A DNA stretch of 64,000 nt from Flammula alnicola (taxonomy: Eukaryota; Basidiomycota; Agaricomycetes; Agaricales; Strophariaceae). Numbering within the stretch: the stretch's first letter is position 1; each line of letters opens with the position of its first letter. Location: NCBI GenBank assembly GCA_015499995.1, contig JADNRV010000086.1, positions 1-64,000 of the forward strand, given 5' to 3'. This document shows positions 6,886 to 38,249 of this stretch, one piece after another. The position numbers and the translations under genes are program-made. The notes under the pieces are model-generated. The model searched no databases. It had not been told where the DNA came from and worked only from the letters and a program-made list of their open reading frames with translations.

Positions 6886-7491
6886 TCACTTCCTCAGCTT
6901 CCAAGCTCCGTCTACGCCCGCTTTCGAGTACTCCTCCGCAACGCTTCCATCAGGCGGCGGATTCCGCTCCCCGAGGCTCCCCTTCCCCGCTTTCGTGCCC
7001 TTCTTATCGACCAGACCCATCCCTCCATACCCTCCCCCTCTCGCGCCCATCTCGCCAGGCGCCGACGCATATCGGATGGCAGAGCTCTCGCCGATGCCGC
7101 CAGGGTGCTGCGGCACCGCGTGTGTCGTAAACCCGTGCGCGAGGAGTTCTGCGCCGGTCGATGAGTATTCAATTCCTTGTGTCTCAGGTCCAGCCGTCGC
7201 GGGGAAGTTCGCATAGGGGGCCGAGGTGGGGTAGGCGCCGGCGGGGACGCGGTAGTGTCGCGACGACGGCTCTGGCTCAGAGACCACATATGTGCGGTAC
7301 CCGCCAGTCGACCTGACGGGCTCGGTCGAGTAGTCATACTGTTTCTCATACTGGGCCGCGATGGTGTCCTTCGCAGGAGGGGTGGTAAGGGGCGACGTGC
7401 CGAGCACAGCGAACGGGGTGTGGAAAGCGCGTGCGGCGAAGGGTTTTTGGGCGGCGCGCAGAGCGAGGGCGGCGTGTTTCGAGAGAGACAT
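6886..7491 (-). CDS. Conserved probable mitochondrial protein of unknown function
   Basis: This is a single exon of 201 codons starting at MSLSKHAALALRAAQK. An in-frame extension upstream of this ATG exists only by using a non-ATG codon, so 7491 is preferred. The first 25 residues are rich in Ala, Arg and Lys, lack acidic residues and end in RAFHTPF, which resembles a mitochondrial presequence. Downstream are GYRTYVVSEPEPSSRHYRVP, AGAYPTSAPYANF, a Gly-rich stretch (GGGYGGMG) and a basic end. No enzyme motif or membrane segment is apparent. I believe similar proteins occur across Agaricomycetes, but I cannot name a function. A TATA-like CTATAAATT is placed about 52-60 bases upstream of the ATG. 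Confidence 0.8.
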   Translation of the reverse strand: MSLSKHAALALRAAQKPFAARAFHTPFAVLGTSPLTTPPAKDTIAAQYEKQYDYSTEPVRSTGGYRTYVVSEPEPSSRHYRVPAGAYPTSAPYANFPATAGPETQGIEYSSTGAELLAHGFTTHAVPQHPGGIGESSAIRYASAPGEMGARGGGYGGMGLVDKKGTKAGKGSLGERNPPPDGSVAEEYSKAGVDGAWKLRK

Positions 7492-7551: not shown

Positions 7552-8286
7552 GCTCTGTTATATTATACGGTGGGAATCTTGGGGCTACCCCACATTCGCA
7601 TTCCTATTTTGGGACGGTATTTAATCCCGCGACCGGTTCTCCTCCTGAGTCCTGTCGGTTGTCGGATTTTAAACCATTCCCGCCCTCTGACCAATCCCCA
7701 ACTATCAAAATTTCTGTGAATACTCTCACAGCACAAGGAGCCTTGGTTAAAGTTGCTTTAAGTTTTACGCGTCCCAGGAGTTGGCAACCCAGAGTATGAC
7801 GATTCCCAAAACATCGGGGTCATCGTACGACATACGAATATGGCGGTTATGACGGCCGCTTCCCCAAATCAATGCAATAAAATCGTATCATTTTCCTTGG
7901 TTCCCTCAAAATCCATTGAACGCCAAAAGCTCAACCGCTTTGGGCGTTGGTAATATGCTACGGCCCACATCCTTCATCTCGAAGCACAGTGCACAGTGCC
8001 AAGCAATTGCCAAGCCCACCTTGTGAGTCCGTGCGCTTAAATTAGCTCAAGTAGAAAGCCTACAAGCGGCCGCACTTCAAGATACACTTTGAATCCAGAG
8101 AAGGTACTCAAAGACCAAGTTAATGCCGATGAATCTACTCTATTTACAGTACACAGTACTATACCCATTGGTTCTTACGCTATGTTGTACAATCTCTTCT
8201 ACATCTTCCTTCGTTCCCGATAAATGTTGTTGATGAGTAAGTCGAAGACGAGCAGTTATGTTGTTCGTCCAAACCCCAAATCCTTA
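7552..8286. other. Intergenic
   Basis: This stretch holds the upstream region of the 6886-7491 gene and the 3' flank of the PFKFB gene. No open frame with recognisable content was found. Confidence 0.5.
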
Positions 8287-10936
<2,650 letters not shown>

Positions 10937-10980
10937 GACGTTGATATAGCGGGTGGGTTATGTATTCTACTAGCCAGTTT

Positions 10981-11000
10981 ACCCGTGCATTCGCACGGGT
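10981..11000 (-). repeat. Helitron 3'-terminal hairpin
   Basis: ACCCGTGC-ATTC-GCACGGGT forms a perfect 8-bp stem with a 4-base loop. On the minus strand it lies 7 bases before the terminal CTAG. Helitrons carry such a hairpin about 10 bases from the 3' end as a transposition terminator. Confidence 0.9.
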
Positions 11001-11084
11001 CCTTTGATATTAGATGATCCAAAGGCTGTGTATTAATGCTAGCAGATACTGGATTCAGAGTACTGGAGGCTAACTACACATCAA

Positions 11085-14000
11085 CTAATCTATAAGAACT
11101 TCATTATATACAATGTTTGTAGTCAGGGATTCTTCAGCATCGTCCGGAAGAAGGACTCTGATGTTATGAGGGGATGTTGCACGGGAAAGAGCCACATATA
11201 ACTGTCCATGTGCGAAAACTGGAAAGCGGAGATAGAGTCCAACATGTTGTACAGATTGGCCTTGAGATTTGTTGATGGATAGCGCAAATGCCAGACGAAC
11301 AGGAAATTGGCGCCGCTTAAATTGGAAGGAGACTTCAGTTGTGCTTGTGGGGGTCAATGAAATTCGAGGGATAAGTGCTAACTGCCCATCTTTTTCACCG
11401 CCAAGCAGTCGCACCTCGAGAACCCGATTGCCCATTTGCATAATTATCATGCGCGTCCCATTGCACAATCCCTGAGCTGGCAAAAGATTGCGAAGCAATA
11501 TGACAGGGCATCCAATTTTCAGATTCAATTCACCGGGAGGAAGACTGGAAGAGTTGACAGAGCGAAGATATTCAATTGGAATGGGTTCATCGTCTCGAGG
11601 ATCTGCTCCTGGTTCGTGGACGATTTCATCAGCACTGATGTATTGCCGACTACCGCCCGCTATTTGATCCAGAATTTCCTGATTTATTTCACCTACATCG
11701 GTATTTCGAGGTGCGAGGATCATGCGATTAAGGAAGTATTCAGGAGGAGGAGGAGGGGTGGAGTTAATGGCAGGATAAATAGACTCTATCAATGAATCAG
11801 CAGATTCTGCTCGCATGTAGTCCGGAAATCGAACTTTATTTTCGTTGATGAGATTGCGACCATGGCCGACATCCAACAACCATTGTGCAAAGTCTCGAGC
11901 ATCCTGGCTACCATGCGCAAGCCTCATGTTTTGTCGCAAAGAGAGAATCTCGATGTGTTCCCAGAGGGAAGAGCGCTGGATAGTCGCATCGACAATATCA
12001 ACTCGTGATCCTCGCGGAACAATTGGAAGAGTCTGCAAAAAATCTCCACCTAAAATCGCAGTAATTCCACCAAATAGCCTCTTGTCGTCACGAATATCTT
12101 GGAGAGTCCGGTCCAATGCCTCAACAGCATGTCTATGTTGGGCACCAATCTCATCCCAGATGATTGCCTGCGTGGCACGCAGTAAATCTGCACGTTGACT
12201 GTTCTTCGGAATGCTGCAGAATGAATCTTCATGGAGGTTTTCGACAGGGATTTTGAACATAGAGTGGGCCGTTCGTCCACCTTGCAAAAGGAGTGCAGAA
12301 ATTCCGGATGACGACACGCAGAGTACAATGACACCATCACAGCGCAACTTTGCACAGATCACATTGTAGACGAAGGTCTTTCCGGTGCCCCCCGGGCCAT
12401 GTAGGAAAAAAAGCTTGCCCATGTTGTTCGTGACAGAGTTGACAATAGAAGTAAATGCTTTTTGTTGATCTTCATTTAGGCGAGGAAGCGTTGAATCGAG
12501 GTCAGTGCGTAGCATGTTCCTGTCGTAGTTGAGCTGTTCGGCGATTAGAGGATTCATCACCAACTCATTCCAGTCGTTTTGAGGTTTCGGCATCGAAGGC
12601 CAGTCATCGAGGGAGTGTCCTGACTCTCGAAGAACCTTGTCAAGCAGAAATAAGCCGAAGTCGTAGATGTCCTCTTCCGGTGGATTGGTTATGCCCATTG
12701 CACCCAGCTGCCATTCCAGATCATCACAAATGTGGTGACGAAAATCTCGCCAGAGAAGCTCAGGTTGAGAAACGTCAGAAAAGAGCAAGAGGCTGGCAAA
12801 AAGATGTCGAAGCTGAGTTCCAGTCTTGATTTGAGCAGCCTCTTCGAGGCACAGTCTCCATTCGCCATCATCTGCCAGGAGCCCTCGCGCAACGCATGCT
12901 GCATGATATGTTGGTAAAGGTTCATGCTGTCCAGGAATACAACGGAGGTCTTCGAAAGACTCAGCCCCTTTGACGATGGTGAGAAGGGTACGCAGGTAGA
13001 ATTGTTCGCCGGCTGTAGGCTTGATAAAGTACATTCTACCAAGTGAAAATCCTTTCTGCTTCCGTAAATTCCATTGCTTCCCAACGTTGTCCCAGGTGAA
13101 GTACTGAGGAAATTCCTGATAAGTATGCTTGCGTGCTTCAGCTCCCAGGGGCCCCTCATCTGCATTGGCTTCAAAGTAAGCAGTAAGTGTTGTTCGTTCT
13201 TGGGCACCACGTTGGACGACATCTTCAATGTTATCGTTAGGGTTGAACATCACCATATGATGGCCTTCGAGGTGAACTTGAAGACGGACGACGGCAGGAA
13301 CCTGGTCATGCATTTCGAATTGAAAGATGCGCCATGATGCCTCAGGCGGAGAGATATACCGACCGTCGATCCACCGTCTAATCTCGTCACGCTGGTATTC
13401 CAACAACGCACGATCTGGGCCTTTGTGAACATATTTGAAGGGGTACTTGATGCTACCAATCGAGACGGCACATTCAGCGTTTATGTGGCAGTCGAGAAAT
13501 GCACAGGGCCAGGGAGGGAAGGGCACGATCCACCGATTATCCAACCAATGATCGCCAACCTTGTATTTCCGTCCGTCGTTGGGCCTGAAGTAAAGTGGGT
13601 AGCCATTCCGGTCCATGTTCGTGAACTCCTGGAAATTTTTGGGATAGCCTTTGCTGCATTTCCCATCAACCATGCAGGGCGCGTTTAAGTTCAATGCTCC
13701 ACACGGTCCATGAACCATGCATCGCTTGACTGTCTCGAATAAGAGTGGTTGAATATCAGGATCAGGCCAACGCGCCCATATACAGGAATCAACTGCTTCG
13801 GGTGTCAGCAGCTTGTAGGGTCCCTTGAGAAAAATCAGGAGGTGAATGTGAGGCAAGCCTCGCTTCTGGAATTCAATGGTATACACGTAGGCGACAGCCC
13901 TTCCGAAAATGCCGTGCTTGTAAATGTAGTCTATAAGAGTGTCCTTCTTCATCTGAAATACGCGAGCCACCAAATCAGGACGATCATACGCCGTCTGGCC

Positions 14001-16721
14001 AGGAAGAAGCTCGTCGTCGATCTCCTTCCAGCGAGGATTGGTTGTCATTGTGAGGAAGATGTCAACTTTGCGAAAATAACGTGCGATTGCCATGGCATCT
14101 TGAAACCGCTGTGTCATGTGTCGTGGCCCACCAATGTAGGAAGAGGGAAGAATGATACGCTGGCCCAGTTCGTGGAGATCTGCATTGTCGCCGTCATCCA
14201 CCATTGCATCTTCAAGTCCACTAAAATGTGCAGCCCGGATTTGCGGTTGATTGTCTTCCAAGAATCGGAGTCTGCTCTGATCAAGTGAGGCAAACATGTC
14301 GACCATATAGCGCGTAAAAAGTCGTCCACCATGCAGAAGGATATTGAATTCTCCTGGGCGAGAATGGATGCGAAAGGCAACATACCGACAAAGAGTCAGT
14401 CGTCTCGATTCTCGATGCTCATGGGTTGGTTGGGCATTGTTTAAGCCACGCTGATTTCGCTTTTCCTGACGCTGCTGTGCATGATGAAGCCGAGTTCCAC
14501 GTTGCTGAGTACTTTCATGCAAAACCATGTCGGGATGCCATCCGTTTTCACCCCGAGGAAAGAGGAGTGGGTATTGAAGAGGGGCATAGGCGGGATGCAG
14601 GTCGCTGATTTGATATAGTGGTCCTGCACGATTACGAAGTACGATATCGCGAGGTGCTCTGGATTGTGCACCTGGCAAAATCACGGCGACTTCATCTGCA
14701 GTCGGCAAATTGTATCGCCGTTTGTCAAGCCCAGGGGCAACACGGAGACGGACTTCAGCATCTTTAACTGGGCCATCGTAGTCGCGGAGGATTTCATGGG
14801 CATGTTTGAAAATGGGTGCGTACTGGTGGTGTTGAAGGAGCATATTCTGAAGGCCCTGCATGATGTTTCGTGACAGGCTTTGGTTCTGTGCCATGCGTGA
14901 TTCTAGAGCGGCTCGGGGTTCATATATGTATAGTTGAGCATATCGAGGGAGCTTATCGCCAGATGGAACCAATGCGCCGGAATTGTGGCAAAGTTCTCCG
15001 CAAATGCGAAAGACAGGCTGACCTTGCCCTTGGTTGATTGAGTGATCCTCTGTGACGCCCAATGATGTGAAAGCCAGTGCCCGATTATATTTCCAGATAT
15101 CCTCCCGAAAGGATTTTGAATCGCGGTCATCCGAGGTGAAGAAACTATGAAGGGGTTCAGGTGGGGCATCTAACACCGGTAAACGCACACGGCCCTCTGA
15201 ACAACAGGTTCCAAACTTAGGATTATGCTGGCTGCTTGCAGAGAGTCTCTCGGCGAGCCAGTGTAGCGCACTGCAGTCTGGACATGGCACGTCCATACGT
15301 CCAAGATAATGTCGTTTAGTCAGATCTTCGTAAGGCTTCCGTGCAATGCAAAAGAGGTCTTGGCGACGAAAGCGTTGACGACGTGCTCGAGGAGCTGTTT
15401 AGACAGAAGTCAGCTCCGCCAAAAAGGAACCCGGATTATCTTACATACCTGGATTATCTTGTATGATTCGTTGTCCTGCATGGGCAGCCACATGTACTCT
15501 TTCTTCTTCCTCCTCTTCGTGGTCGTTGACAATGGACATCTCTGGTCCAAAATGAGTATAGAGCAGATAAAACGGGCATGTGATACGTACGATCAACATC
15601 CTGGTCTTCCGCTTGTGGGATGCCCTGACGATCGATATTATTTTCCGCTAAAAAGACAGTTTAGAACATTAAGTAACAAATTTTAGTTTGCAGACTTACC
15701 GTTTGCCCGAGCACAATTGGGTTGGTGACTATTGTCGCATCCAACAGGTTCAGAGGGGACACTGTGAGCACCGCATGTAACTGAGAGGAGAATTAGTGCC
15801 GGTAGTCATTAATCACGATGTTGACAACTCACTCTGTTGATTTGTCATCGCCATTGACACGGCAGACACAGGTGCCTGGGCAGCAATTTCTTGAATCAGT
15901 GCTAAAGGGACAGGAATGGCTATCAGAAACCACGCTACAGGAACAATAATCATGTTTGACTTACTTTGTGTTGCGGAGGATGCCTCCTGGGTAGCAGGTG
16001 GTGTCGGCAGCGTAGCAGAGCCTCTACGTAGCCTAGTTGATTGCTGCTGTCTTGCACTTTCGGTGCGAGCATCTTGAACTCTCGCATTGAGCTGAAAGAG
16101 GAAATGAGTAAACATTCAAAAAGAAAAACTAATGAATACACTTACGGTATGCTCGGGAACATTTCTTGTGAGCTGCGAAGCTTGTCGCTCTCGAGCACGC
16201 CGACGTTGCTGGGCTGCAGCTCTGTTATTTGAAGGTAATTGCACCTGCCGCCGAGGTGAAATGAGCTGATGATTCGCTCCGACAGCCATTTGCGTAGAAG
16301 GTGGGCTCGGTAGGCAACAGATAGACGCGAGAGGAATCTAAAGCAAATAAAGATGAGTCTCGAGCTCGTAAGAAAGGATATTAATACACACCCTATTCCC
16401 AAAACCAACCATCTCTAAAGATCCTTCACCTTCAGATGGACTGGGTGCACGGTTTTCGTCCTGAGTATTGCGAGGATGGCGCCTTCTGGGACTGCTTTCA
16501 AGGTCGTTGTTCCGAGTTTCCCGTCCTGAGCGTCGTGAATTCGTCCTTGCCCTCTCGACAGCTCCAGGTTGGGGTGTAGGTGTTTCAGGCCTTGGGGCAG
16601 GAGTTCGACGGCGGCGAGGGTTTTCATGCGTGTTGGCATTCAGTTCCCGAAATGCTTTGCGGGTCTGTCTTTGATGTCGTTGAGGTGTATTGAGTAGCTC
16701 ATCAGGCCTATTCAATGGCAT
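11085..16721 (-). CDS. Helitron Rep/helicase (RepHel) transposase
   Basis: The main exon (11085 to beyond 15296) has no internal stop. Near its start is a zinc-binding CPDC...CC segment (CPDCSALHWLAERL, GTCC). The HUH nuclease motif GLPHIHLLIFL sits near residue 480 of the main exon, followed by the tyrosine region FKYVHKGPDRA and DGRYISPPEASWRIF. A Pif1-like SF1B helicase follows, with Walker A HGPGGTGKTFVYN (about residue 965), IIWDEIG and a C-terminal VALSRATSP. The frame continues upstream of the ATG at 15296 (RHYLGRMDVPCPDC), so that ATG is probably internal. Short 5' exons appear at about 15440-15540, 15597-15650, 15700-15780, 15838-15900, 15963-16092, 16142-16290 and 16390-16721. They encode a disordered Arg/Gln/Pro-rich leader starting MPLNRPDELLNTPQRHQRQ. 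The product nicks and unwinds DNA for rolling-circle-like transposition. The N-terminal exon model is tentative; the catalytic core is certain. Confidence 0.9.
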
Positions 16722-17166
16722 ATGAGTTTCTGTTGGTGGAAAGAAGAGCTGAATACTCACATATATCGTTAGTGGGCAGTGGTGATTATTAGAGTGTTCA
16801 ATTGGCGTCCGCGAGACGACGCGCCACCCTGGTGATCGTGAACCGCGCCGCCGTTGTAAGGGTCGCGATGGTCCGAACATTCCGGAACTTGTAGACCGTC
16901 GCCCGGAAGACGTCTGTTTCATTGATTGTCGGGCTCGACGAACATTGAGTTGTTGAATTGAAAGCAAAAGGGATCTTGCATTTGGAACATCACACAAAAA
17001 GAATATGGAGGGGGAAGATAAGTAAGACTCGATAATCAATCAGCAACGTGTGACATCACTCGTTTTCCCATCCGCCAAGAGCGACGGGCCCAGCTGCAGC
17101 CAATGAGAACGCCCACATATCCCCCGTGGGAAATACCAAGACACCACTTTCAATTGTTATAATAGA

Positions 17167-17808
17167 TGTCTGTGTGGAAGGAAGCCGAAGCGAGTAAGAG
17201 CGATAAAAGATAAGAACAAACGTGTGCATGCAAGTTTAGCTCGTGTCGAGACATGTCTTTGCGGGGATATGTAACAACCAATGACAACCCTATAAAACAC
17301 CTCACAAACACATATCTCTCGAACCATCACATTTCTCCCGGACAGCACTATTAAATTGACTACATAATACACATTGTTTTAAAAAAGACGAGGAAGAAAA
17401 AAAACTTGTACTATGTAAGGAGCGGTCATGAATGGCTCGTTTCGTCAACGGTTGGGAGCTTCCTAAGGTATAGTAACGATCGGGGGTCCTTGTAAGTGGG
17501 CAGGCCGAAGGATCGAATAGCTGTTAGCCGGATATACATATATATGAAGGTGATGATGGAGAGTTGCATGAGCGTGAAAAACAAGAAAAAATGTCGTTCC
17601 AGTTCGAGTGTTGGTGATTGGTGAAATGCAGATTAAAGGGTTGATGGAGTCGTCAAAGGAAAGCAAGGTCTAAACATAACTAAAAAAGAAAAGAAAAAAC
17701 ATGGTTGTTAGCAGGGTTACAAAAGTACGACGGCGTCCAAACGGCTTACCAGGAACCATGAGGAGCGTAGCCGGTACGCTAGCATCCATTTTCCAGAAAG
17801 AGATAACT
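17167..17808. other. Intergenic between Helitron and casein kinase gene
   Basis: This stretch contains the 3' flank of the casein kinase gene. It also probably contains the original PFKFB promoter, now separated from its gene by the Helitron. No open frame of note. Confidence 0.5.
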
Positions 17809-20045
17809 TTATCCACGGCAGCACAACCAGCTGAAAAGCCCCTTCGGTCTTCCATGGCCGCCCTCCTCGTCCTGCTCGCCCACTCGCTGCATCTGCTCGC
17901 GATCATAGATGCCCATATTCCTAACCTGTCCTCCCATGTCCCTCTGTCCAGTCCCAGGAGTCGTCGTGCCCTCGCCCGACCCATTCTTGCCCGCCTGCGC
18001 CTGTCCATACAAAAACGACTCGGAGCCATTCAGGTGCGCGTTGCCATTGGCAAGCATCTGTGGCGTAGGATTCGGCGAGTGCCGCCCATAATTGTTGGTC
18101 GCCGTCGCTGTCCGGTAGCCAGTGGGGCTTGGAGCCGTCGCATAGGGATGCGGCGCTGTAAGCGCGCCACTGCTGATGCCGTTGATGTCCCTGGGCTGTT
18201 GGCTGGCTCGTCTGCTCTGCGGCGCGAGTGGCTGTACACTGCCGCCGACGTCCCTGGATGTGTTGGCACGATCTCCAGTACCTGTCCGACGGCTGCTCTT
18301 CTGATGCACTGGAGCAGGGCTCAGAACGAGTTGGTTGGGTGTGGTCCCGTCTGGAACTTGTCGCGAACGACGACCGCCATGGTCTCGTTCTCGGCGGGTT
18401 TCCCGGTGCGGTGCTGCGGCTGCCGAAGCAGATGTGTGCTATTGGGCTGTTAGCAAAAAAAGAAGAAAGACAATCTGATCGATAAGGACTGACGTTACTG
18501 GCTTCCCAGCCCTTGCCGCCATTGAGAAGCATCCAATCGAACACTCCATCTTCCGGTTCTCCCAAGGTCTTCAGCACCTTCGTGAAAAGTTCTCGCAGGA
18601 AATCGTAGTCGGGAGTTTCCTCGAAACCGAGCTTACGAACGTAGTTCATGTAGATTGTGAACTCCTCTAATTTCAACATTTTGTCAGACAGTGAGGTACA
18701 TATAACTCAATGAAATACGAACCAGGGAAACCTTCGCACAGCTCCGAGATGGGGGTAGTTTGTTTTTTCTCGCCAATCTTCTCATACTTCTGCTTGTTGG
18801 TGGCGGCTCTCAAACCCTGCCATGGAAGACCGCCTCTCAAGAAGTACATGAACACATGTCCGAGAGACTCTAGGTCGTCTCGACGGGACTGCTCACGTCC
18901 CAGATGAGTGTTGATTGACATGTAACGTGCGGTCCCCGACAGCGACTTCCGTTCCCGATAAGGAATATGAACTTTCGTTTTTGGATCGCGATAATGCTTC
19001 GCCATTCCAAAATCTGAAAAGGGAACATGTATTAGGAATGATGCAAACAAAGGCTGTCTGTAGAAGGAAGGATGTCATATACGGACCAATGATGTGCACA
19101 GTGTTGGCATTCTTGTTCCCTGGGACGCCAATCAGGAAGTTATCGGGCTTGATATCCCGGTAAATAAGCGACTTGTCGTGAATCGCCTGGACACGAGTCA
19201 CCTATTCAGGATGAGGTATTAGCATCACAAATGTGTCTTGTTAAATATTCCATAGGCTGGAGAACATCGCATAATCTATGTTCCGAGAAACATGGACAAG
19301 GAAAAGACAGGAGCAACAAACGAACCATCTGCTTGGCGGCCATACAGACTGTCTTGATAGTGAACTTTCGCCCACACATATCGAAGAGGTCCTCCAGGTT
19401 GGGGCCCAAAAGGTCGATGACCAGGATGTTGTGGAGCCCCTCTTGACCAAAATAGTACACTTGCGGTACCCCGGCTATACATCCCCATAGTAAGTGAGGC
19501 GCAGTTTACATACACACAACAAGACAGGAGACGTACGAGTTCCATTCAATGTTCTGTACGAGCGGAACTCATCTCGCAGTTGAGGAGCGTCCGACTTCCG
19601 TGGTTCCTGTTCGTGGCAAAATGAGCGGCGGCCGTGGAGTGGCGAAAAAAAGGGTGCGTACAAATTTTATCGCCACAGGTTGGCTGGTGGTTACTTTGAC
19701 GCCTTTGCAATAGTGTTAGTTCAGAGTTCAATGGATGCATAGAAAGCGAGAATGGAGTTGATAGAGAGTACAGGGCAAGGCAACTTCAAGAAAAGGCGTA
19801 GAGCGCCTTTTGTTCCCCCCCCCCCTGTGGGCACGAGCCGACGAGCACGGAGACATGGGGCCATACTGAACAGGGTGCTATGCAGCACAGAGAAAGAGAA
19901 TATACGGACCTTCAAAGACCACACCAAAGGAACCCTCGCCGATTTTCTTTCCAACCTTGTAATGCCCACCAACGATGCCGTTGTTTGAGGAGACGGAATG
20001 AGAGGGGTGGTTTGAGGAAGAGGCTATGACATGCGGAGTGGACAT
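17809..20045 (-). CDS. Casein kinase I, plasma-membrane Yck1/2 type
   Basis: This multi-exon gene encodes a Ser/Thr kinase of the CK1 family. The N-terminus [20 protein letters not shown] leads into [19 protein letters not shown] (glycine loop), then [16 protein letters not shown] and the catalytic loop [15 protein letters not shown]. It continues with [14 protein letters not shown] (DFG, split by an intron), [20 protein letters not shown] and [21 protein letters not shown] Ser/Pro/Asn-rich tail ends in FSWLCCRG; the paired cysteines fit the palmitoylation anchor of yeast Yck1/Yck2. Known of the family: it acts at the plasma membrane in nutrient signalling, endocytosis and morphogenesis. I chose the ATG at 20045 because it gives the usual fungal N-terminus; an in-frame ATG at 20204 would add 53 Pro-rich residues. 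Several introns of 50-70 bases interrupt the kinase domain. Confidence 0.93.
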
Positions 20046-20204
20046 GGCTTGAAAGGAGGGGCGGGGTAGGAGGATGGAAAAGGGAGGACCTAGCCTTTGA
20101 GGAGGGCTACGGCCAGCGAGAAAAGGTGAAAGGAAATGGGGGGGAATCGGAAGATCCTTGTAAACGGGCGGACTTTGATTTCTTCTCACACCCTGCAGAC
20201 TCAT

Positions 20205-22811
20205 TTTTTCTCTTGTCTTTGAAACAATTCATCCCACGCATGGGCTTGCTTGCTTACATTGCTCTCGGGCTGCGCGCCTCGTTGCAAGCGCTCAATTATC
20301 CCAACTGTTCATTTCCGACCTTGAGCTCCCCCGAGTTACCGCGCCTAAGCATCCTTTTACGGACTATCGTTCCTACAGATCGTCTCTTCGATTTCTCTCG
20401 TTGCCGCCTGTTGGTTGCTTGCAGGTTTCTTCACCTTCCTGGTTCCGGTTGTGAAGCCGTTGAAAAACATTTAATTTTCATTTATATCCACCCCGCATCC
20501 CGAGCTCAACGGTACACCGCCACTTCGATTCCATGGAAATGCAATATCCACCACAAAAAGAGCAGTCTCTCATACTTCTTTCTTTTTATATCGTTTCCAT
20601 GCCTCTTTCTGTGCTTTTGAGAGATAACAGACTGGCCGTTCTCTTCCGCGACACTTTTTTACACAGAAGGAGGTTTTATCTATCCCTTGAACGGACCGGT
20701 CGCGATTCCGGCGGTCGCATAGCTCGCTCAATTTTAATGCTTCATCGCAACAAATCCCCAAGGTTCCTCTTCACGGAACGACTATTGCTGCTACTGAAGG
20801 CACACATGGCCATTTAGGTATGTTTTATCCCAACGTTGAACGGTGGCAGTAACGACAACCACTTCTAGACCTTTCTCTTACAGTTAAAGTTCTAGCACCA
20901 ATGGGTACTTCAAAGTTCACCCACCCGAGTTCGGACTTATATCTGGGGTCGACCGATTATTGTTTGGAATGACGATACCCCCAGAAGATGCACAGTTCTT
21001 CACAGTCAAGGATTCGCTGGTATCCATCCAGTTTACACCATCCTCGAGGCTTTCCTTGAGGACACCACCTTCAAAATTCCTGTCACAAAGTCGATCAAGG
21101 GACACCTGTACTCAACTACAGGGTCTGCTAACCGCCCCCCGTCTCATAAACGTCCTCGCTGGACGGTTTTCATTTTTCAGACGTGCTTTTCCGGCCTCTC
21201 AGGTGCCGTTTCGACGCAGGCTCTTCAAATACGCCGTGGTTCATTTATTGGAAACACTACCAACGGGTTACCTCTTGCACTTGCCGCGAGGCGCTTCATG
21301 ACGCTGCACTAAATCTGTCGTTTGATTGCTCGGTTCCAAGACTCGGCCGGCTCAACATGGAAAGCTTGCAGCCGTAATGCACCTACCCTTTGTTGTAGTG
21401 CATGCTTGCCTTACCCTACCTCCTACTTTGTTCCCTACTGCGATCTCTCAACAAGCCCTTTGAAGAACACTCTGCAGTTCTGCTGTACCTTCGGCAGACT
21501 TATTAAGTCTCGCTTTTGTTCCACGGTGACCCACCTAAGGCGGGTAACCTGATGACCAATGGACCTCTTATTATAGACCGTTCGAGTCTTCCCATATAGG
21601 CCGGTCTATCGTCAACTCGTACGCATCAAGCAACGACATGGTCAATTGACGACTCAATTTAGCACAATTCATCTACCTAGATGATTATTTCCCGTATTGC
21701 AGGGGATCTCAAGAAAGAAAGAAAGCATTATAGGACGGTTTGAATATCCGAACATGGTTTCAGCAGGTCCTCAGAGCGGCCAACTTCATATCCAGATGGT
21801 CGGACATCGGCTTTGCCTTCGTGTTTGCAGGTCCTTGACGTGCTGCATGCAACGCCACGATCTTTTCCGTGCATCATTGCAAAGCAGACTCGCGTCAGCG
21901 TTCCGGTTTCCGTTTGTCCGTGCCTCCTACTTTCCACTATTAATATCGTCATTTGATAGGGGCTCTCGTCGAATATGGTCCATCCTGCCCTTATTTCACG
22001 TTTTAAGGGAATGGAGTCGGGTTTCGAGGCGGTAGGGTACGGTGAATTTCGGATCAGGATTGATGATGTTGTAAGCTACGACGCCAAAAATACAGATCCA
22101 AAATGCCATGTTAGTGACTTTCGCCGTTACGAGGGTCCAAAAGCATGAACCCAATAATCATCGACGTCGAGCCTGAAAACATGACGTTAAATCAGGTGTG
22201 ATGAAAAAGGGGTTGTCGACAAAGGAGACGTATAAGGGCACATTGAGGGCGCATCTTCAAGGGTACTAATAATCTCGACGTAAGGCCCTGTGCAGAGCCA
22301 TCGAACGTTGATCAAGCGTGTGAGGCAGGGCAAGCAGGGACAGCAGATTTAGAGAGTATTATTTAATATAGGTACGACTTGGACGCAATACTTGAGGATG
22401 ACGATACCCATCCATAGTGGTTACAGGAACTCTGTACTCAAGAAAGAATACAAGGGGCCTGAAGTGGAACTTTGGGGACACTACTTTGTGTGATTTGTAA
22501 CCTCATGTGCGAATTATTTATTGCCTTATGTAGTTATTATTTCCTCTTTGAGTTGATATTGATGTGACGGCGGAACAAGTAGAGAATGTCAGCCATGGCC
22601 ATTATCGTGGGATGGATTCTACCACAAGATATAACAAAACGGAGCAATTAGTGGCCAAAGATAGAAAAAATCATGTAAGTACTTTATTCGACAACGACGG
22701 TTGAATGCGGAATCCATCAAATCAAGTATAGTCACTATCAGCCCGCCCACCCGGTATGGGTACGGGAATTTGAAACTGATAAGTATGCTAAAATCACTAC
22801 TCCAAGAACAT
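20205..22811. other. Intergenic, no supported gene
   Basis: The first 600 bases are CT-rich on the plus strand and are the likely upstream/5' UTR region of the casein kinase gene. Short frames at 20960-21301, 21322-21552 and 21697-22035 (plus) have no recognisable domain and are interrupted. On the minus strand near 22010-22250 a short spliced peptide ending DPKFTVPYRLETRLHSLKT can be read, but this is speculative. Confidence 0.35.
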
Positions 22812-23715: not shown

Positions 23716-24221
23716 CGTTCGCGCCCTTTTCAGCGGTCTGAAAGATATACAGATGGCAGAAGAAGAAGTTCAACGACTTTGGATATCGATGGTGTATATA
23801 GATTGTATCCGAAGCCTAGAGATGAGATCAATGAGATGCAGATAACTATTAAGGTTTTCGCGACGATCTATTAATACGTACCTAACAGGGTGAATCCGAG
23901 TATACGCCATCATGACCTTGACAAACTTGGTGTCTCCAAGATTTAAAATCGAATGTGAAAGTCGCTAGAGCGCTTAAGCACTACTGCATGAGATCGTGGC
24001 CGCAAAAACCTTGCAGAAACCCAACAGAAACCCTGACATCAGACAGTGACTAATTTCATGCCAACAGTCACATCCCGTGATTAACGCTAACGGGGTCGTG
24101 ACTGCAGGGTCTCCGCAATGTTGAAGCCCTCGTAATTTTAGACAATGACCACAACTCATACCTTCAACCCAGAGACGATCTTACTTTCATATGCTTGGCT
24201 CAAACACGGAGAAATATCCAT
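23716..24221. other. Divergent intergenic region between GTPase and TERT
   Basis: About 500 bases separate the two divergent start codons and probably hold both promoters. An ATG at 24146 lies upstream of the TERT start in a different frame and could be a short upstream ORF. Confidence 0.4.
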
Positions 24222-27200
24222 ATGTCGAGTGATCTCTTGCCGCAAGTCGCCTCCGTCATCCTGAAAAAATACTACCCTTGCGTCAAAGCCTTACGAACTT
24301 ACTTGGCTGACCTCCTTGAGTCGCCAGAGAGCAGTTCCAATGCTGCTTACATTTCCCTTTCGCATGAAAACGACTCAGAAACCTATGCCAATCTTCTGGA
24401 CGCGTCTTATGTCGCAGCCAAGGAGCCCAAAGTAAAGGCATTTCGAATTTACCCTCCCATGCTTGATATGCGTGAGGTGAGTTCAAATTCAAGTTGTTGT
24501 GATGGTTCCCTTCGACAAGTGTTAATATTTTACAGATTTTGGATCAAGCGCAAGAACGTCTCTTTAAGTTCAAGCGTCCCCAAAACGTCATCACTTCCGG
24601 CTACCGACTTGTGAGTATAAGTTCGTTGCCTGATGTGTCAATCAAAGACGATGATGGTTTTCACTTTAGGCATCGCGTGCTGGTGACCATGGGAGGACGG
24701 GGATGGCTAGAATTGGAATCACAAATTACTTCATAAACACCATTATCACAGCGTTTCAGGCCCCAGAGTGGGAGACACTGCTTATTCGGTAAGTCTTCCA
24801 TCTTACTACCTTTTTGTGGACATGGTATCAATATATAGTTGTAGAATTGGAGAAGATGCGATGCTCCACCTCCTCACCGAAACGTCGATATTCACCTCTT
24901 TACCAAACGGGTGTTTGTGTCAATTAACGGGAGAGCCTATCATTTATGTTCTGCCAAGTGCTCAGGATATGTGGCGATCCTCAGCGGCGGAAACATCGAG
25001 ACCGAGGGCTGTGACTGGAGAGAAACGCCATCGACAAATCATAGCAGATGAACAAGACGAAAGGCCCAAGAAGCGAAGAAAACTTGATGGGTCTGGCACC
25101 GACAAACCTATCAAGAAGACTCTAATTGGGAAAAGGTATGTAGATATGGAACTGATCACCAACTTTGACTGACTTCATCAGCTATTCACCTGCTGATATA
25201 TCTTTCGTTCGGGCTCGACTATTTTATTCTAAACCAAATTTCATACCCTGCACAAATCATATCGTTGTTGGGCTGCCATTGAAGCGTGAGTGCCCTTAGT
25301 TGGACAATATAGCTTTCATCTTATTTCATTTCATCTTAGATGTGCTAAATCGAGTCAATCCATCTTACCGGTCGAAGGCCGTCGCCAAAGATGATGCTAT
25401 GACAACTCACGACGATCGAAAACTTGCTGAAAATATTCGACAATTATCTAAATATATTTTTGCACGGCAATATGGGCTAAACACTCCTTTTTGCTCCACG
25501 GCGACGAAAAGTTCTTCGTTTGCTCTTGGCGACTATCTTGACAGGGAAACCGAAATCAAGGTCAAAATTTCATCTACTACGCCTTTTCAACTTGCTGAAG
25601 TCGAAGTTTGATCAGACAGCAGGTCCGTGCAAAACTCCAAAAAGGTTGAAGGACATTCTTCCTCATCTTGAAAGGCTTTTACGACGCCACGGAAAATGCG
25701 GCTATCTACCCCTAAGAGATCGGGCCTGCCCCTCGAAGGTGTGTCCATGTCTTCCTGGCTGTGAAATTCGTTATGTCTTACTTTATTTAGATCAAGGATA
25801 TTGGAGTTAAAGACCTGGATAGCAGCGTCATACTTGTAGGTGTTTTTTTTTTATGCCGATAACTTGTCTGCGTACTGAGTATCATATGCAGGAATTGATG
25901 TCCGAGACTTCCGTCCAACTCCGTTCCCAAATTTCACTGGGTACAGGCAATATATCACTTGATTCCACAGGTAATCCTATACCACCCATCGGCCTCACTC
26001 AGGCTCGCAGACACGCGAAAGCCAAACCCCGATTCGTCGAATTCGCCTGCAGCCATGTAGAGGTAGGAAAATTTATGCATTCTATAATGTCTTTCCCGTA
26101 ATCGTCTGCATTGCTCAGGTTTACCGCTACGTCGCACTTGTAACAAATGCTGTTATTCCAAAATCATTCTGGGGTTCAAGGGTCAACCTCAAGCTGGTCC
26201 TCCGACGTGAGTTGCGTTTCCGTTCTTGATTCTGTGACTAACAAGTTTGTAGACGTGAAAGAATTTATTAGCTGTCGACGCTATGAGACACTGAGTCTCC
26301 ATTACATTCTACAAAACTTCAGTACTTCGGCTTGCGATTGGCTGATTCCTCCAGGCCCTGGTGCACGCCATCAAGCCAGGGTCTCGGTATCTGATGCTCT
26401 CAAACGTCGCGAGTTGTTGGAGGATTTTCTATTCTGGTATTTCGACTCGTTTGTTTTACCACTATTGAAGGTGACCTTTGCGACCTTTGAAGATGGTTAA
26501 GGTTAATTGACGACTGCGATTGCATAGACAACATTCTATGTCACAGAATCCTCGGCTTTTCGTAATCAAGTGCTTTACTTCAGGCATGACGACTGGGCGA
26601 CACTCTGTGCTCCTCTCATTGAACGACTAACCTCAGTCACCTTCGAAAAGCTATCCGATGTGAGCTCTGTTACCAATGCGATGAACTTTCTTATTAATTT
26701 GATATGATCAGGCTGAGGCGGCAGAGATCCTCAGACAGCGTAGACTGGGCTTCTCTTTCGTTCGACTACTACCCAAAGATACAGGCGTTCGACCCATTGT
26801 CAACCTGCGCAGGAGAAAAACCATGAACCGTGTACGTATCACGTTACGCAACAATGCTAGCCCCCGTTCTGACAACCTTGATAGGGCTCGTTCACCACCG
26901 AGCAATCCATTAATCAGATCCTTCAAGCTGCATTCAGCATCCTGACATATGAGCGCGTAAGCGTCTCAATCCTTCGTTATCCGATGCGACATTTAATTCT
27001 TTGTGCAGACCAATCAACCCCAACTCCTCGGGGCCTCTACTTTCAGTCCCGACGATATTTACTACAAACTGAAGCGACTCAAAGCTGCCCTTCCACGAGA
27101 TACGAATGGTGCTCTGTGCGTATTTCTTGTCGATATTGAAATCGAAATGCTGATATCAGGCAGGCCTAGACTCTACTTCGTTAAGGTAGACGTACAAGCA

Positions 27201-28995
27201 TGCTTCGACACAATTGACCAAACGAAATTGTTGCAAATTCTGCGACAGCTAATATCAGAGGTGGCATATTTTGCGCCTTTAATGTCAATCATTCTCACTA
27301 ACTACTCATAGGATGTCTATATGATGCAGAAATATGGGCAGGTCAATATGTCTCTCGGTAAAATCAAACGAACTTATGTTAAGAAGGCAGTTCCTGAAGG
27401 TTAGCTGGTTTTGGACATGGCGCCACTTTCTAACGATTGTCTCGTAGACGATCACCCTCATTTTCTTCGCTATGCAGCCGACTTGGCAAATGTGCTTCGA
27501 AACACGATCTTTGTTGACCAGGTTCGTCTAACATTACCGTAGGCTTTCTGTCGCATCTCACTGACATCCTGATAGGTCATCTACCCTTTGTCTAAGAAGC
27601 AGGAAGTACTTGCACTTCTGGAGGAACACATCACGGAGAATATTGTAAAGGTATCGCAAAATCTTGATAATTCGATTCGTTAGCTCGTTGGGCTCACTCC
27701 CTATTTTAGATCGGGCAGAGCTATTATCGACAGACCGTCGGCATACCTCAAGGATCTGTCCTCTCCTCGATCCTTTGCTCTTTCTTCTATGGAGACCTCG
27801 AGAAGAAGTTTTCAAAGTTTATGGATGACCCAAAAGTGTACGCACAATCCTCTACATAATTCTCGTGATACTGAGCACCTTCCGTAGGCCCTCTTACGTC
27901 TCATCGACGATTATCTATTCATAACGACTAGTCGAAAATTGGCGGTTGAGTTCCTGGATATAATGAACAAAGGTTATTGATTTCACCGTCTCCTTCGACG
28001 AACCTTTTTGAACTTGATGTTTACTAGGCCACCCAGAATATGGATGCTTCATTTCACGAGACAAGACGCTCACGAATTTTGACTATGACGACCAAATTCT
28101 CAACGTCGTCAATCCTGGCCAACGATGTAAGTCGGATAATTCTTTTCAAGATGCAATTTTACTATTGTGCAACCAGCTTTCCCTTGGTGCGGATATTCCA
28201 TCAACATGCGAGACCTGTCAGTTACCGTTGATTACACACGATACCATGGGAGTAGTCAGTGATTTCTCTAAACCAGTTGTATGGCTCTGAACCTGGATGA
28301 AATAGGCATAAGGAGCACGTTAACTGTGGATAGAGGTCGACGACCAGGCGCAACTTTCAGTTATAAATTACTGCAGTAAGTCAACAGATATGGAATAATA
28401 TTCTATTCTGACACATGAGCATTTAGATTGGCGAAAGCAAAAAGCCATGCCATCTTCTCCGACAGGGAACTGAACACGGAGCATGTCGTCTATCTCAATA
28501 TATACCAGAACTTCCTCTTGACAGCGATGAAGATGCATGAGTACATTCGTGACTGGGGTGTCAACGGAAAGCGATCCGAAATACCGCCTTCCTGCGCAGT
28601 AAGTTCCACATTGTAACCTGCATTGTTTTACTGATCTTTATTTGATAGATGTCATTGAGAGAACTATCATGTACAATTATACGACTGTGCGTGCCCAAGC
28701 GCGGCGGAAAAGAGCCCAGAAAAATGAAGGATCCTCAGAAATTCACAGGGAGGCTGTGGTATGGTATGGTGCTGCGGCCATTTATACATCTCGATCATGC
28801 AATGCTAATCGTAAAATACACAGGCTCGGTAATCATGCATTCCATCACATCTTGAGCCGGAAAGCACACCAGTACAAGCCTTTGCTGATATGGCTCAAAT
28901 TTGAAATGCGGCGCATGAAATCTCGCCTGTATTATCGGCGCTTCAAGAGCCTTGTGAAAGATGCCCAGGCAGTGTTTGCTCAGATTGCTAGCTAA
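24222..28995 (+). CDS. TERT: Telomerase reverse transcriptase, catalytic subunit
   Basis: About twenty short introns split this gene. It starts MSSDLLPQVASVILKKYYPC. The N-terminal half contains a nuclear-signal-like RPKKRRKLDG, the RNA-binding part with KYIFARQYGLNTPF (CP-like motif) and FVEFACSHVE. The reverse transcriptase domain follows in order: motif 1/2 FVRLLPKDTGVRPIVNLRR, motif A FVKVDVQACFDTI, motif B' QTVGIPQGSVLSSILCS and motif C LLRLIDDYLFIT. The three catalytic aspartates (one in A, two in C) are present. A C-terminal extension follows (from about 28430) and ends RFKSLVKDAQAVFAQIAS. The enzyme adds telomeric repeats using an RNA template in the nucleus. Start choice: first ATG in frame with the conserved N-terminus. 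Order of motifs and frame continuity across introns suggest a functional gene. Exact exon ends need transcript data. Confidence 0.95.
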
Positions 28996-29239
28996 GTAGC
29001 TGAGTAACTACAGCTGTAGACCGAGGACATGTAACCGGTAGGAAGAAGCAAATAAGATCGTGATTAGATATATTTGTCAGGTTTTCGAGGAGATGATTCG
29101 AAGCACGTGGAGGCTTCCGGCATGACGATGACCGAGAAACGATGCGTGGGGAACGTTGACGATGTCGGGACCGACTCTGTGGTCGACGACAGCACTGGTT
29201 TGCTGAACCTTTTAACATCTGATACGGAAGATAAGTCAA

Positions 29240-30127
29240 ATGCTACACACGATCACGCCTCTTCATCCCGTGCGATTGCTCAGCAACTTCCGGAATTGCA
29301 TAAGTATTCGGTCAGCCCACAACGGTTTCCGCACGTTCGCTCTTGTTTCTGCACATTCAAATTCTGCTCGTCGCTCCGCATACTATTCAACCATGTCCGA
29401 GTCTGGGTTCTACTCTTTGAAGGCCGAGCTTCCCGGCAGCAAGGTCTACGACTTCGCCGACCTCAAGGGAAAGACGGTGCTGATCGTGAACGTTGCTTCG
29501 AAATGGTGCATGTCATGTTCTGCCATCCCTAACGAAGCACTTGCTGATCCTTCTCTTCTTCACCTTCAGTGGCTTCACACCGCAATACAAAGGTGCTCAA
29601 TGAGCGCTAATGGGCGTACGAGTCGACACATTAACCGATTTCTGCTTAGGTCTCCAAGCTTTGTATGAGAAGTACAAAGATCAAGGTCTTGAGATCCTCG
29701 GATTCCCGTGCAACCAGGTGCGTCCTCCTCACTGCTATGGGCACATCCAAGCTTCAGAACTGACTCTTGCCAACCTCACCCCAGTTCGGCGGCCAAGAGC
29801 CCGAAGACGACAAAGGCATCGCCGAATTCTGCACGCTCAACCATGGCGTCACCTTTCCCCTGATGAAGAAATCCGATGTCAACGGGGACGACACCAACGA
29901 GGTGTACAAATGGCTGAAGAACGAGAAGTCTGGACTGTTGGGGCTTACGCGCATCAAGGTGCGTTTCAAATCTTTCCATACTCGGTGAGATTGTGTACTG
30001 ACAATGATCGGAATGATAGTGGAACTTTGAGAAGTTCCTTGTGGATAAGAACGGCAACGTCGTACACCGATGGGCATCCACCACGACACCCCAGGCTATT
30101 GACGCTGAAGTCGCCAAGGTCCTCTGA
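29240..30127 (+). CDS. Thiol peroxidase of the glutathione peroxidase family (GPx/Hyr1-like)
   Basis: Exons join through clear introns to give [15 protein letters not shown], with the peroxidatic residue being cysteine rather than selenocysteine. Then come [40 protein letters not shown] and [18 protein letters not shown]. The cysteine in FCTLNHG corresponds to the resolving Cys of yeast Orp1/Gpx3, so reduction by thioredoxin is likely (family knowledge). There are two possible starts. 29240 adds a 51-residue Arg/Ser-rich leader with the look of a mitochondrial presequence ([26 protein letters not shown]). 29393 gives the compact cytosolic form beginning [12 protein letters not shown]. Both may be used. 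The gene lies 245 bases downstream of TERT on the same strand. Confidence 0.93.
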
Positions 30128-32255: not shown

Positions 32256-34480
32256 TTACAAGTTACAAGATGGAGCACACGTTAAGCCCGAAGTAGCGAG
32301 GCCTCGAAATTGGAGTCGCGCCTTCCTTCGGGTCGTCATACCGTGAATGTTTGTAGGTATCGGTTTCGTCCATCTCGAGCGTTTTTCAATCTTAGGCGCC
32401 CTCTTTCGACGCTTCGCTGGGGGCTCCAGCGGTAGCTCTTCGGCCTCCTCTTCAATGACTTCCAACGTGCGTTCGTAGGATTTGAGCTTCCTCTTCTTGC
32501 TTCCTGTCAGCCCATATCCCTCCTTATCGTGGTCGGGTGTCCAGTCTTCTGTATCAGGAAGGGCTTTGCGTGTCTCTTCAAGGATGTCGATCATATCCTG
32601 GTGCTTGATTTCTTCATCTGTCTCCGTGAACATCTTTTTTCGCAATCTCTCGACGCAAGGCTTCAGGTCGTTGAAGTAGGGTGCAAACAAACTCAGGACA
32701 GAGTCGTCGAAGATTTCTTCGTCGGACCTCATATCCTTCCTTTTGCAGCGTCCAACTTTCACGAAGGTTTTGCCAGCGATCCACGTCTTGATATCTGTTC
32801 GCATAATGTCGAAGTTCTGCCTCTCAGCGTTGTTAGGCCCTGCGTAATCCCAGCAGATCCAGAGCAACACATAGAAGAACGACTCCAAGTCATGACGGGG
32901 CTTCTGTTCCTCGCCATCGGGTAGTCCCATTAGCACTTCAAGGGCCATGAACGGCAGTGTTCCCTGAAAGATGAGGTAAGTAGTTATTTCAAAGGCGACG
33001 GATATATTTTCTTACGGCTCGGTGACCAATAGTAGCGGGGTTAGAGACCCGGCCATCTTCCCTCATAACGATCGCACAATCGAGATCAATGAGGATCCCT
33101 TTTCGCATCTGACTACTCTCTCCGGCGTCCGTGCTGTGAGGTTGGATAGAAGACGCGTGTGTATCCCCTTCGTCTGTAGGATTTGGCTGCGCCTCTGGTA
33201 AAGTGGGTCGATACATCATTATGTTGTTCATGCTGATATCTCGATGTAGAATCTTCTTTTCTTCTACCAGTCGCCGATGGGCTGTTTAAAGGTGAGATAG
33301 CTAGACGAACACGACAGTAACTCAGCTCACCTTCAATCGCATCGATCAGCACCGAAACCAGTTCTTTCTTCGTCGAGAAATAAGGCAATCCCTCGGCGAG
33401 CGGAGTGCTGACTATCCGGCGATGGGCTTGAATCACCAGATCCGCGTGCAAATCTCTGTCGTGGTAATTCTCAGCGTCAATCACTTCCCGGATATTGGCC
33501 GTCGTATCATCTCTGTCATTAACCTGCACAATCTCCTCTGCAACTATATGTGCAATCCCCTCTACGTCACCAGCCATTTTCATTATTTCTGGTTCGGTAA
33601 GTTCTTTGAAAACATTGGCCCAGGTGTCCTTGATGACATAGTCGGTGCCATCGAAGCGAGCATGCCAGCAAACGGTGCCCCTACCCCGGATATTGTCGCT
33701 AATAAACAAAGTCTTGATGATCTCGTATTCCTTGTCGGCGACAGTCACGAATCTCTTTCCTCCCAGTCCATGTCTGATGGTGGGATCGAAGCCGATGGCA
33801 GAGGGATCGGAGAGAGTCAAACCAGCAAGGAGGCGAATCAGCATCTTCGGCTCTTTTTGAAAGTCAAACTTGACGGAACCAACGACTCCAGCGCGATCGA
33901 AGACGTAGACGCGAACTTCGGTTTGACAAAAAGAGACTCCGATATGAAATCGGCGTTCGTCCTGAGACGAGAAGACCATACAGGCACCGTTGGTAAGTTG
34001 GTTCTCATTATGTTGTTGGTGCTTAATTTCGATGTTGGACGTGAGTTCTGCGGTCACCTTAATGGTGGTCCATGAAGGGGTCTCCCCCACTTCAATGAGG
34101 ATGAGGTCGGGCTTTCGTGCGGCGGATGGCCCACCGGGCAATGGCTTGGTACTCGTGCTCATGTCCCAGCGTCGTCGCTTGGAAGGTACCTTTGCATTCG
34201 AATTCTTTTTGGAAATTTCATGGATCGCAGTACCGATGGCGTTGAGGAATACCGCCAGATTAGTCTCCACGTAGCCATCTTGGGAAGGGTCAGTTAGGTC
34301 CGGGCACCCCGCCCAGGTTTCGCGTTTGGGGTTCCAATAAAAGCTTCTTTCATTCACAAGCTGTTCCGCCAGCTCGTCAACGGCAAGAGGGAGAACGCTA
34401 TCTGGGAACAAATGCTCGATTAATCGAGGTACGTTGAACAGTTGACTCTCGTGTAATTCCTCCTTAAGCGCTGGATCCAT
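32256..34480 (-). CDS. FunK1-type protein kinase
   Basis: The three exons are 33331-34480, 33016-33281 and 32256-32963, with clean GT...AG introns. The N-terminal 400 residues are the FunK1-specific region (MDPALKEELHESQLFNVPRL, DERRFHIGVSFCQTEVRVYV, GTVCWHARFDGTDYVIKDTW). The kinase core has the catalytic loop KILHRDISMNNIMMY and LIDLDCAIVMRE, where DLD replaces the canonical DFG, as is usual in FunK1. An activation/APE-like part follows (GTLPFMALEVLMG). The tail holds basic runs (SKKRKLKSYER, PPAKRRKRAP) that look like nuclear signals. Family role is unclear, possibly development and multicellularity in mushrooms. Compared with the copy at 1-1011, a deletion near 34620 removes the upstream ATG and the frame before 34480 differs. 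Translation must therefore start at the internal ATG at 34480, shortening the N-terminus by about 50 residues. Confidence 0.88.
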
Positions 34481-35677
34481 GCGGACCTGCGTGAGGAGCG
34501 TTTTTGGGTTTGGGTTACTGGTAAGACTTCCACTGTGAGGCGTGAGTTGATTCGGGCTTTGCTCGCTGCTGCGATCGGGTAGGTGTGGCGGGTGCTCCGC
34601 TGTTTGTACTATGAGTGGAAGGATTTATAGCAGGAAAAATCAGAGTCAGTCAGTCTGCTTACCATCAGGGGAAACAAATAAGCTGATGGGCCACTGTGGC
34701 ACTGTGGCACGGTTTACGATGAAGGCGAATAGGAGCGTGCCACCGTAAAGCCTTGGATATTTAGATTATAATTATCGCACATGTATACTGCTCTCGTGTC
34801 TTCGTGTTCTGGTTCCCTGGTAGTCTGCGGCTATGTCCAACGTTGCAATCATATGCACATATGAATCATCCCTTACAAGATTTTGGAGGTCTTTTCTGCC
34901 AAGCTTAGAGTCAGTGTTACTTGAAGAAAGCCACTCGCAATCTACTACTTCTTTTGCCTGGCCGACGTGACGGTTGGATGGCAGTTACCTTGAATATCGA
35001 CCAATCCATAATTCAGAAAATTTGTTGTGGACAATTGCTTCTCAGTGCTCTTCGTCACCCTTCGTCAGACTCTGGAAGTTGTAAGCACCAAACACGTGCA
35101 CCATACGAGTAAGTAGATGAAGAATCGTGAGGTCTAAATTCAGCGAGCAAATAATATTACGTATCCGCAAGTCTGCGGGGGAGCTCGCTTCGCCATCCGA
35201 ATCGCCCGACACATGCAAATAAGGCCTTTCTGTAGGCCTCTGAATACGAGAGAAAGACCGGAATCCCCCAACTTTTTTGAACATATGTATACAATACATG
35301 AAAAACTATCCAATCCCATAAGCTCAAAGGACGAGGGGCAATAACAATTGAGATATGACGCACGCAACATGGGCTGAAAACGAGCTCATTCTTGCAACCA
35401 GGTTTGGCTTTGTTTGTTCGACGGTTCCACCCCTAGAGAAAGAATGCTCGCTTCGCTCGCAACAATCGTAAAACAGATTGCTCGCTGCAAGTTGCTGCGC
35501 TCGCAATTAATTGAAAACGTGACCACCAGATGTCTCCACCATCATCGATTCATCCAACATCCTCATTGTTTAGGTGCTTTATCACTGCCATCAGCCTTCA
35601 GGAGCGCAGCACAACACGTTGCTGGCGTATCTTATAAAAACCACGTTACCCAAGATTCAACGTGAGATCTCGCTACA
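34481..35677. other. Intergenic; first part duplicated with left end of window
   Basis: 34481-34765 matches bases 860-1165 and is the old N-terminal coding region plus flank of the FunK1 duplicate. The rest is the upstream region of the 35678 gene. A small palindrome-like GCTCGCTTCGCTCGC occurs near 35448. No gene seen. Confidence 0.45.
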
Positions 35678-37234: not shown

Positions 37235-37386
37235 TTGTTAGGCTTTCGCTCTGTAGCTTATATGTATTTTTTTCGTTTGTATTTTTATATGGCTATTTCG
37301 CGAGCAAGGGCGTGAATTAGCACCAACACTGTTTTGTTGTAATATATTATAACCACGTACATCTTCCCAAGAACATTATACCTTCC

Positions 37387-37998: not shown

Positions 37999-38249
37999 GG
38001 TGTGTGTTAGGCTAGAGCGACGTTGAATTGAACGGCAACCGCGAGAGTTTGTCTATCGTGGTCACGTGCAGCTCCTTTCATCCCCTCTCCGATTCGAATT
38101 CCATATACTTACAATGACAGTAAGTATTCCTTCTGTATCTTCTTTGAAATGTCAGCTGAAATGTGAATGCCACTACTTATATCTGCACTTACGTTTAGTC
38201 ACTCATAACCACTCAGGCTGACAATGCTTCTACGCTTGAAGGAAGTTCG
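37999..38249. promoter_or_regulatory. Upstream region of MED22
   Basis: A 250-base stretch holds the MED22 promoter side and the front of the F-box pseudogene. No specific motif was identified. Confidence 0.3.

Follow-up and report, generated by a model that had tools for sequence, protein, structure and literature searches.

The window analysed here is a 64,000-nucleotide stretch of the genome of Flammula alnicola, a wood-decay agaric of the Strophariaceae; it lies on a contig of 229,476 bp (C845), and the genes and the element described below between positions 8287 and 20045 are all read from its minus strand. At 8287..10936 lies a PFKFB gene whose 17 coding exons specify 532 amino acids, with the coding sequence and splice sites intact. 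The spliced product is identical to the published gene model P0001, which carries the domains PF01591 and PF00300, a kinase and a phosphatase in one chain, and which matches PFKFB2 in the PDB over residues 91-520 (4.5e-127). The gene is predicted to encode a bifunctional 6-phosphofructo-2-kinase/fructose-2,6-bisphosphatase. A longer reading of 551 amino acids was discarded because it includes a 57-nt intron, and the 532-residue model follows P0001. The ATG is at 10936, where P0001 also begins. The N-terminal start is much alike in the related proteins P0002, P0005 and P0020, while the other relatives that were read differ or are shorter; the start codon appears to be well, if not uniformly, supported. 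Among the matches listed in a protein search, PFKFB exons were found on C845 and on a second contig, C269, and the remaining hit, on C212, is a distant relative that aligns at 44% and 42% across short segments.

The upstream neighbour of PFKFB is a co-oriented casein kinase 1 gene (YCK-like), which extends over approximately 17809..20045 and was identified from its translations, one exon region matching casein kinase-1 in the PDB at 4.4e-56. Reading of its frame places the stop codon at 17809-17811. The native DNA between the two genes is in two pieces: a 33-bp remnant of the native leader next to the ATG (10937..10969), and a stretch at 17167..17808 made up of the 3′ side of casein kinase and the PFKFB promoter with a probable start-site region, the position of which is inferred. 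As the two genes are co-oriented, the native intergenic DNA, 675 bp in total (642 + 33), must hold both the 3′ UTR of casein kinase and the promoter of PFKFB. A first-pass annotation of the window had assigned 17167-17808 as a whole to the native PFKFB promoter; that this stretch is cut off from PFKFB by a complete Helitron stands, but it has to accommodate the casein kinase 3′ UTR as well. The placement of the Helitron in that annotation, 33 bases before the PFKFB ATG and with the casein kinase 3′ side beyond it, agrees with P0001 and with the reading frames.

The intervening element is a complete Helitron of autonomous type, 6,197 bp in length, at 10970..17166, with its 5′ end at 17166 and its 3′ end at 10970. 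Its limits are set by an empty allele on C269 (junction 16738|16739) together with two sister copies (C90:418379-424575 and C445:597493-603660), and they reproduce to the base the coordinates first proposed for an apparently complete Helitron. On the minus strand the element starts with TCTATTATAAC and ends with ACCCGTGC-GAAT-GCACGGGT-AAACTGG-CTAG. From the sequence and the empty allele, the 5′ terminal TC (17165..17166) is preceded by a host A and the 3′ terminal CTAG (10970..10973) is followed by a host T. The TC...CTAG ends are common to the window, C90 and C445 copies and agree with the 5′ TC and 3′ CTRR of Helitron1. A subterminal hairpin with a stem of 8 bp and a loop of 4 nt lies at 10981..11000, 7 nt before the CTAG, and its stem ends 11 nt from the terminus of the element, which matches the canonical Helitron1 position of about 10-12 nt. 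When the terminal 60 nt containing this hairpin were folded as DNA the z-score was -5.66, and an equally good fold was obtained in none of 200 shuffles.

The core of the element is an ORF at 11085..15296 that encodes a RepHel protein of 1,403 amino acids, combining Rep and a PIF1 helicase, without internal stops. Its Pfam matches above cut-off are to Helitron_like_N (PF14214, 1.9e-59), PIF1 (PF05970, 9.9e-73) and Pif1_2B_dom (8e-16), and the strings GLPHIHLLIF, KYPFKYVHKG and GPGGTGKT at residues 480, 617 and 967 are what we take to be the HUH, two-Tyr and Walker A motifs. The closest relative is P0121, which is likewise 1,403 amino acids long and is 88% identical across the full length. A probable N-terminal RepHel exon lies at 16434..16703, where residues 2-90 of P0124 match by tblastn at 51%. 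The sequence at 10970-17166 is a complete canonical Helitron (Helitron1): the 5′-TC, the 3′ hairpin with CTAG, the A/T flanks and the uninterrupted RepHel recorded in the first-pass annotation are all present, and there is no target duplication.

The empty allele was found by nucleotide searches of the F. alnicola assembly, which comprises 74.4 Mb in 861 contigs and includes C269 (50,765 bp). The PFKFB side of the insertion (query 8200-10969) matched two places, the window itself and C269:16739-19508. The other side (query 17167-20500) matched at full length in two of the 11 places listed, the window and C269:13387-16738; the remaining nine matches, on C35 and C52, were short, at 70-80%, and confined to the casein-kinase part. 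The two matches on C269 abut, such that C269 reads ...TATTCTA|TGTCTG... where the window holds 6,197 bp between the A and the T, an A|T insertion that involves neither duplication nor footprint. The empty AT site, which had been put forward as something to look for in other strains, is thus present within the same assembly, and its presence rules out a fixed or old insertion. The two PFKFB alleles retain all GT/AG sites and encode an identical protein of 532 amino acids (P0001). Their coding sequences differ by one synonymous change (exon 2, window position 10718), and the whole 2,770-bp stretch differs at six positions.

Collinearity continues beyond the junction: window 1-27739 aligns with C269:1-28113 at 94-98%, broken by indels and by a single further mobile insertion, as expected for the two haplotypes of a dikaryon. 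The collinear flanks extend for 8.3 kb on one side at 97.8% and for 6.6 kb on the other at 96.2%, with 92 mismatches in 8,355 columns and 159 in 6,702 columns respectively (about 1-2.4%). On these alignments the insertion is derived and heterozygous, with one of the two F. alnicola haplotypes carrying the Helitron, and we infer that the two haplotypes sit in the two nuclei of the dikaryon. A paralogue in place of an allele is ruled out by this synteny. More broadly, the pair could be a product of assembly or paralogy and the heterozygous insertion not real, given that the 861 contigs include redundant pieces and that C90 contains near-identical inverted arms. We consider this highly improbable, since the junctions coincide exactly with both ends of the Helitron, one substitution is unique to the window copy, the PFKFB nucleotide query matched two places only and the flanks are collinear across many kilobases.

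The further mobile insertion is carried by the other haplotype, at C269:3937-10079, where the window is empty at 23807-23814. It is 6.1 kb long and is bounded by terminal inverted repeats of 15 bp (TAGGGACTATCATGG) and, apparently, by a target duplication of 8 bp; one of its ORFs has a weak match to phage integrase (tyrosine recombinase), below the Pfam cut-off. Elsewhere in the window, the region 32392-34734 contains a fungal-type protein kinase ORF (PF17667) at 33113-34480 and has two diverged counterparts (85%) on C269, at 26985-29346 and 36886-38169.

The Helitron belongs to a small set of closely similar copies. Its 5′ terminal 267 bases were matched in full at four of the 20 places listed, the other 16 sharing the outermost 76-81 bases at 78-99%, and a pattern of its 3′ end, for which up to three mismatches were allowed, was found at three places, each of them perfect. 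The copy at C90:418379-424575 differs from that in the window by 4 mismatches in 6,197 bp, while the copy at C445:597493-603660 is 98.6% identical, with 57 mismatches and 29 gap columns. A further copy on C583 is cut off at the contig end and was counted as the C90 locus because it shares the C90 flank. In a three-way comparison the private substitutions numbered 1 in the window copy, 3 in C90 and 56 in C445. A counterpart without the Helitron is present for two of the three loci, that of the window and that of C90 (at C90:468511, with flanks 99.94-99.96% identical). The C445 copy lies within another repeat, for which 25 matches were listed, including the two flanks of C445; in the eight repeat copies that were read, the same A|T junction is continuous in all. 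The C445 copy is older, and relative to the other two it has deletions of 11, 10 and 8 bp, the last of which alters the C-terminal end of RepHel.

With 4 differences in 6,197 bp between Helitron copies, set against 92 in 8,355 and 159 in 6,702 between the flanking haplotypes, these counts place the insertion in the window so that it is much younger than the haplotype split. The near-identity of copies and the two loci with an element-free counterpart also suggest, indirectly, that the Helitron has been recently active, though gene conversion between copies could make it seem younger than its true age. Related Helitrons at about 85% identity occur at C756:232001-236023 and C312:18002-22507, and they match up to base 6188 but not over the last 9 bases. 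Directly abutting the CTAG of the C90 copy, from C90:424576 on, is a tiny Helitron-like element, 137 bp in all, that begins with the outermost 81 bp of the autonomous Helitron, with one mismatch, and ends in GGCTAG|T. At places that have the Helitron 5′ end and no autonomous body, six of the nine fetched have this kind of ending at 134-143 bp, and these short elements apparently form a non-autonomous family. The regions 412-427 kb and 466-470 kb of C90 are inverted arms that are 99.94-99.96% identical, with the autonomous Helitron in one only; either they arose very recently by inverted duplication, or the assembly has joined two haplotypes here.

How the insertion affects PFKFB depends on where it falls relative to the promoter. 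In fungal promoters a pyrimidine tract is suggestive of a transcription start. The leader of the empty allele is 80% pyrimidine at -40 to -80 (17174-17213 in the window), its first upstream ATG is at -96 and an ATTGG lies near -149 (17282), while the native intergenic DNA holds a single TATAWAW, a long way off at 17544. From this base composition, transcription of PFKFB most likely starts upstream of -33, and the Helitron would therefore lie inside the 5′ UTR. The first-pass annotation had the element displacing the promoter. The gene has indeed been separated from its native upstream DNA, but the pyrimidine tract points to an insertion downstream of the start, in which case promoter and start site are probably intact and disconnected from the coding sequence.

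Our preferred reading, to which we give a probability of roughly 0.65, is that a young Helitron sits in the 5′ UTR of one haplotype, that the occupied PFKFB allele is silent or strongly reduced, and that the empty allele supplies the enzyme. The sequence shows that an intact canonical Helitron, recently active, has inserted at an AT site 33 bp from the start codon and is co-oriented with PFKFB; the native promoter, itself intact, would now fire into the 5′ end of the element. Any RNA that reached PFKFB from this promoter would carry kilobases of foreign leader, and any RNA that started upstream of the 3′ hairpin would carry the hairpin and a short upstream ORF, which begins at an ATG at -54 inside the hairpin. 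From -100 to +20 the RNA folding energy, calculated without a shuffle control, changes from -12.3 kcal/mol in the empty allele to -32.7 kcal/mol in the occupied one. With a foreign leader, a hairpin and an upstream ORF, the occupied allele would probably give little or no expression, and PFKFB would be provided by the empty allele. The earlier proposal that the Helitron now has to drive PFKFB does not follow for the organism, which keeps an uninterrupted allele on C269.

An indirect sign of a silent or weak allele may be found in the protein set, where P0001 is placed on one contig (C269) although the occupied allele encodes the same protein, whereas P0241, encoded by the adjacent gene at 6886-7491, is placed on two, the longest being C845. 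Gene calling or the filtering of haplotypes may instead account for this contrast. The P0001 cluster also represents two sequences, and the second might be a gene model for the occupied allele.

The 3′ end of the Helitron could alternatively have replaced the promoter, driving the occupied PFKFB under different regulation, perhaps from a TATATAA at 11104..11110. This motif lies at a suitable distance, 174 bp, before the ATG, is the sole TATAWAW in 10937-11400 on this strand and has three CCAAT upstream of it (11259, 11310 and 11325, minus strand), and the Helitron and PFKFB point in the same direction. On this strand the window contains 23 TATAWAW and 65 CCAAT, for which about 0.17 and 0.47 are expected per 464 bp. 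Among 1,271 overlapping stretches of 464 bp, 171 contain TATAWAW and six contain TATAWAW with at least three CCAAT, a combination that was chosen post hoc and for which some of the six may be the Helitron 3′ end itself. These motifs led us to weight promoter replacement slightly up and silencing slightly down. All of them fall within the RepHel coding sequence, however, and a transcript that began before the hairpin would carry both the hairpin and the ATG at -54, and we regard replacement of the promoter as unlikely.

It is also conceivable that the insertion has little effect and that the occupied PFKFB is still made, either because transcription starts within the 33 bp that remain or because the Helitron is removed from the transcript. 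The 33 bp of native leader are kept and the CTAG could in principle act as a splice acceptor, but a motif scan of the 33 bp recognised no promoter motif, and an intron of 6.2 kb would be far beyond the short introns of a gene that fits 17 exons into 2.65 kb. We judge this outcome to be decidedly improbable, and splicing of the Helitron as a 6-kb 5′ UTR intron in particular was rejected as implausible given how very short the PFKFB introns are. An extension of the preferred reading, the silent or reduced allele, builds on the probable position of the Helitron 5′ end just downstream of the native start and on the shared direction of RepHel. The PFKFB promoter may now transcribe RepHel and tie Helitron activity to carbon state, with the occupied nucleus null for PFKFB and kept only thanks to the second nucleus; we think this quite unlikely.

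Both the type of Helitron and the proposed effect are of known kinds, and allele pairs of this type, one with a Helitron, are published for Pleurotus. In Pleurotus ostreatus the basidiomycete Helitrons HELPO1 and HELPO2 have RepHel in a common ORF (Castanera 2014, PMC4289320). They are alike in build to the window Helitron, with 5′ T[C/G], 3′ CT[A/T]G, a subterminal hairpin and insertion at AT; as a difference, a non-systematic look recognised no captured gene in the window Helitron. In the P. ostreatus haplotypes PC15 and PC9, 21 genes with a transposable element within 1 kb are reported as inactive and as active in the element-free allele, the families involved being Gypsy, Copia_5 and the Helitron HELPO1 (Castanera 2016, PMC4905642). 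In the same study, roughly half of those genes that have an element on their upstream or downstream side are reported as not repressed, which counts against silencing of the occupied PFKFB. Expression was measured for those alleles, whereas the PFKFB pair is known from sequence alone; both of its alleles lie in one assembly, and the Helitron is only 33 bp away from the start codon of a gene of core metabolism.

A Helitron close to a start codon is also described for the Brassica napus BnSP11-1 promoter, 108 bp before the ATG and with a reported loss of function (PMC5030654); the plant element is non-autonomous and function was tested by experiment. Helraiser (PMC4778049) shares the 5′ TC, the CTAG 3′ end, the A|T target, the hairpin and head-to-tail junctions, but is a reconstructed bat element assayed in cells, while the window Helitron is natural and fungal and is characterised here as DNA. 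Titles and the openings of abstracts yielded no publication on this Helitron/PFKFB insertion, which leaves its absence from the literature unproven.

At this locus a single organism provides two matched alleles that encode one and the same PFKFB protein, with and without a young Helitron of autonomous type 33 bp before the ATG. The pair makes it possible to test the effect of a Helitron on a gene of a core pathway, the sheltering of a damaged allele in a dikaryon and the continued movement of the Helitron family. As a heterozygous pair at a core regulator of glycolysis, it would be a good test case and a natural experiment.
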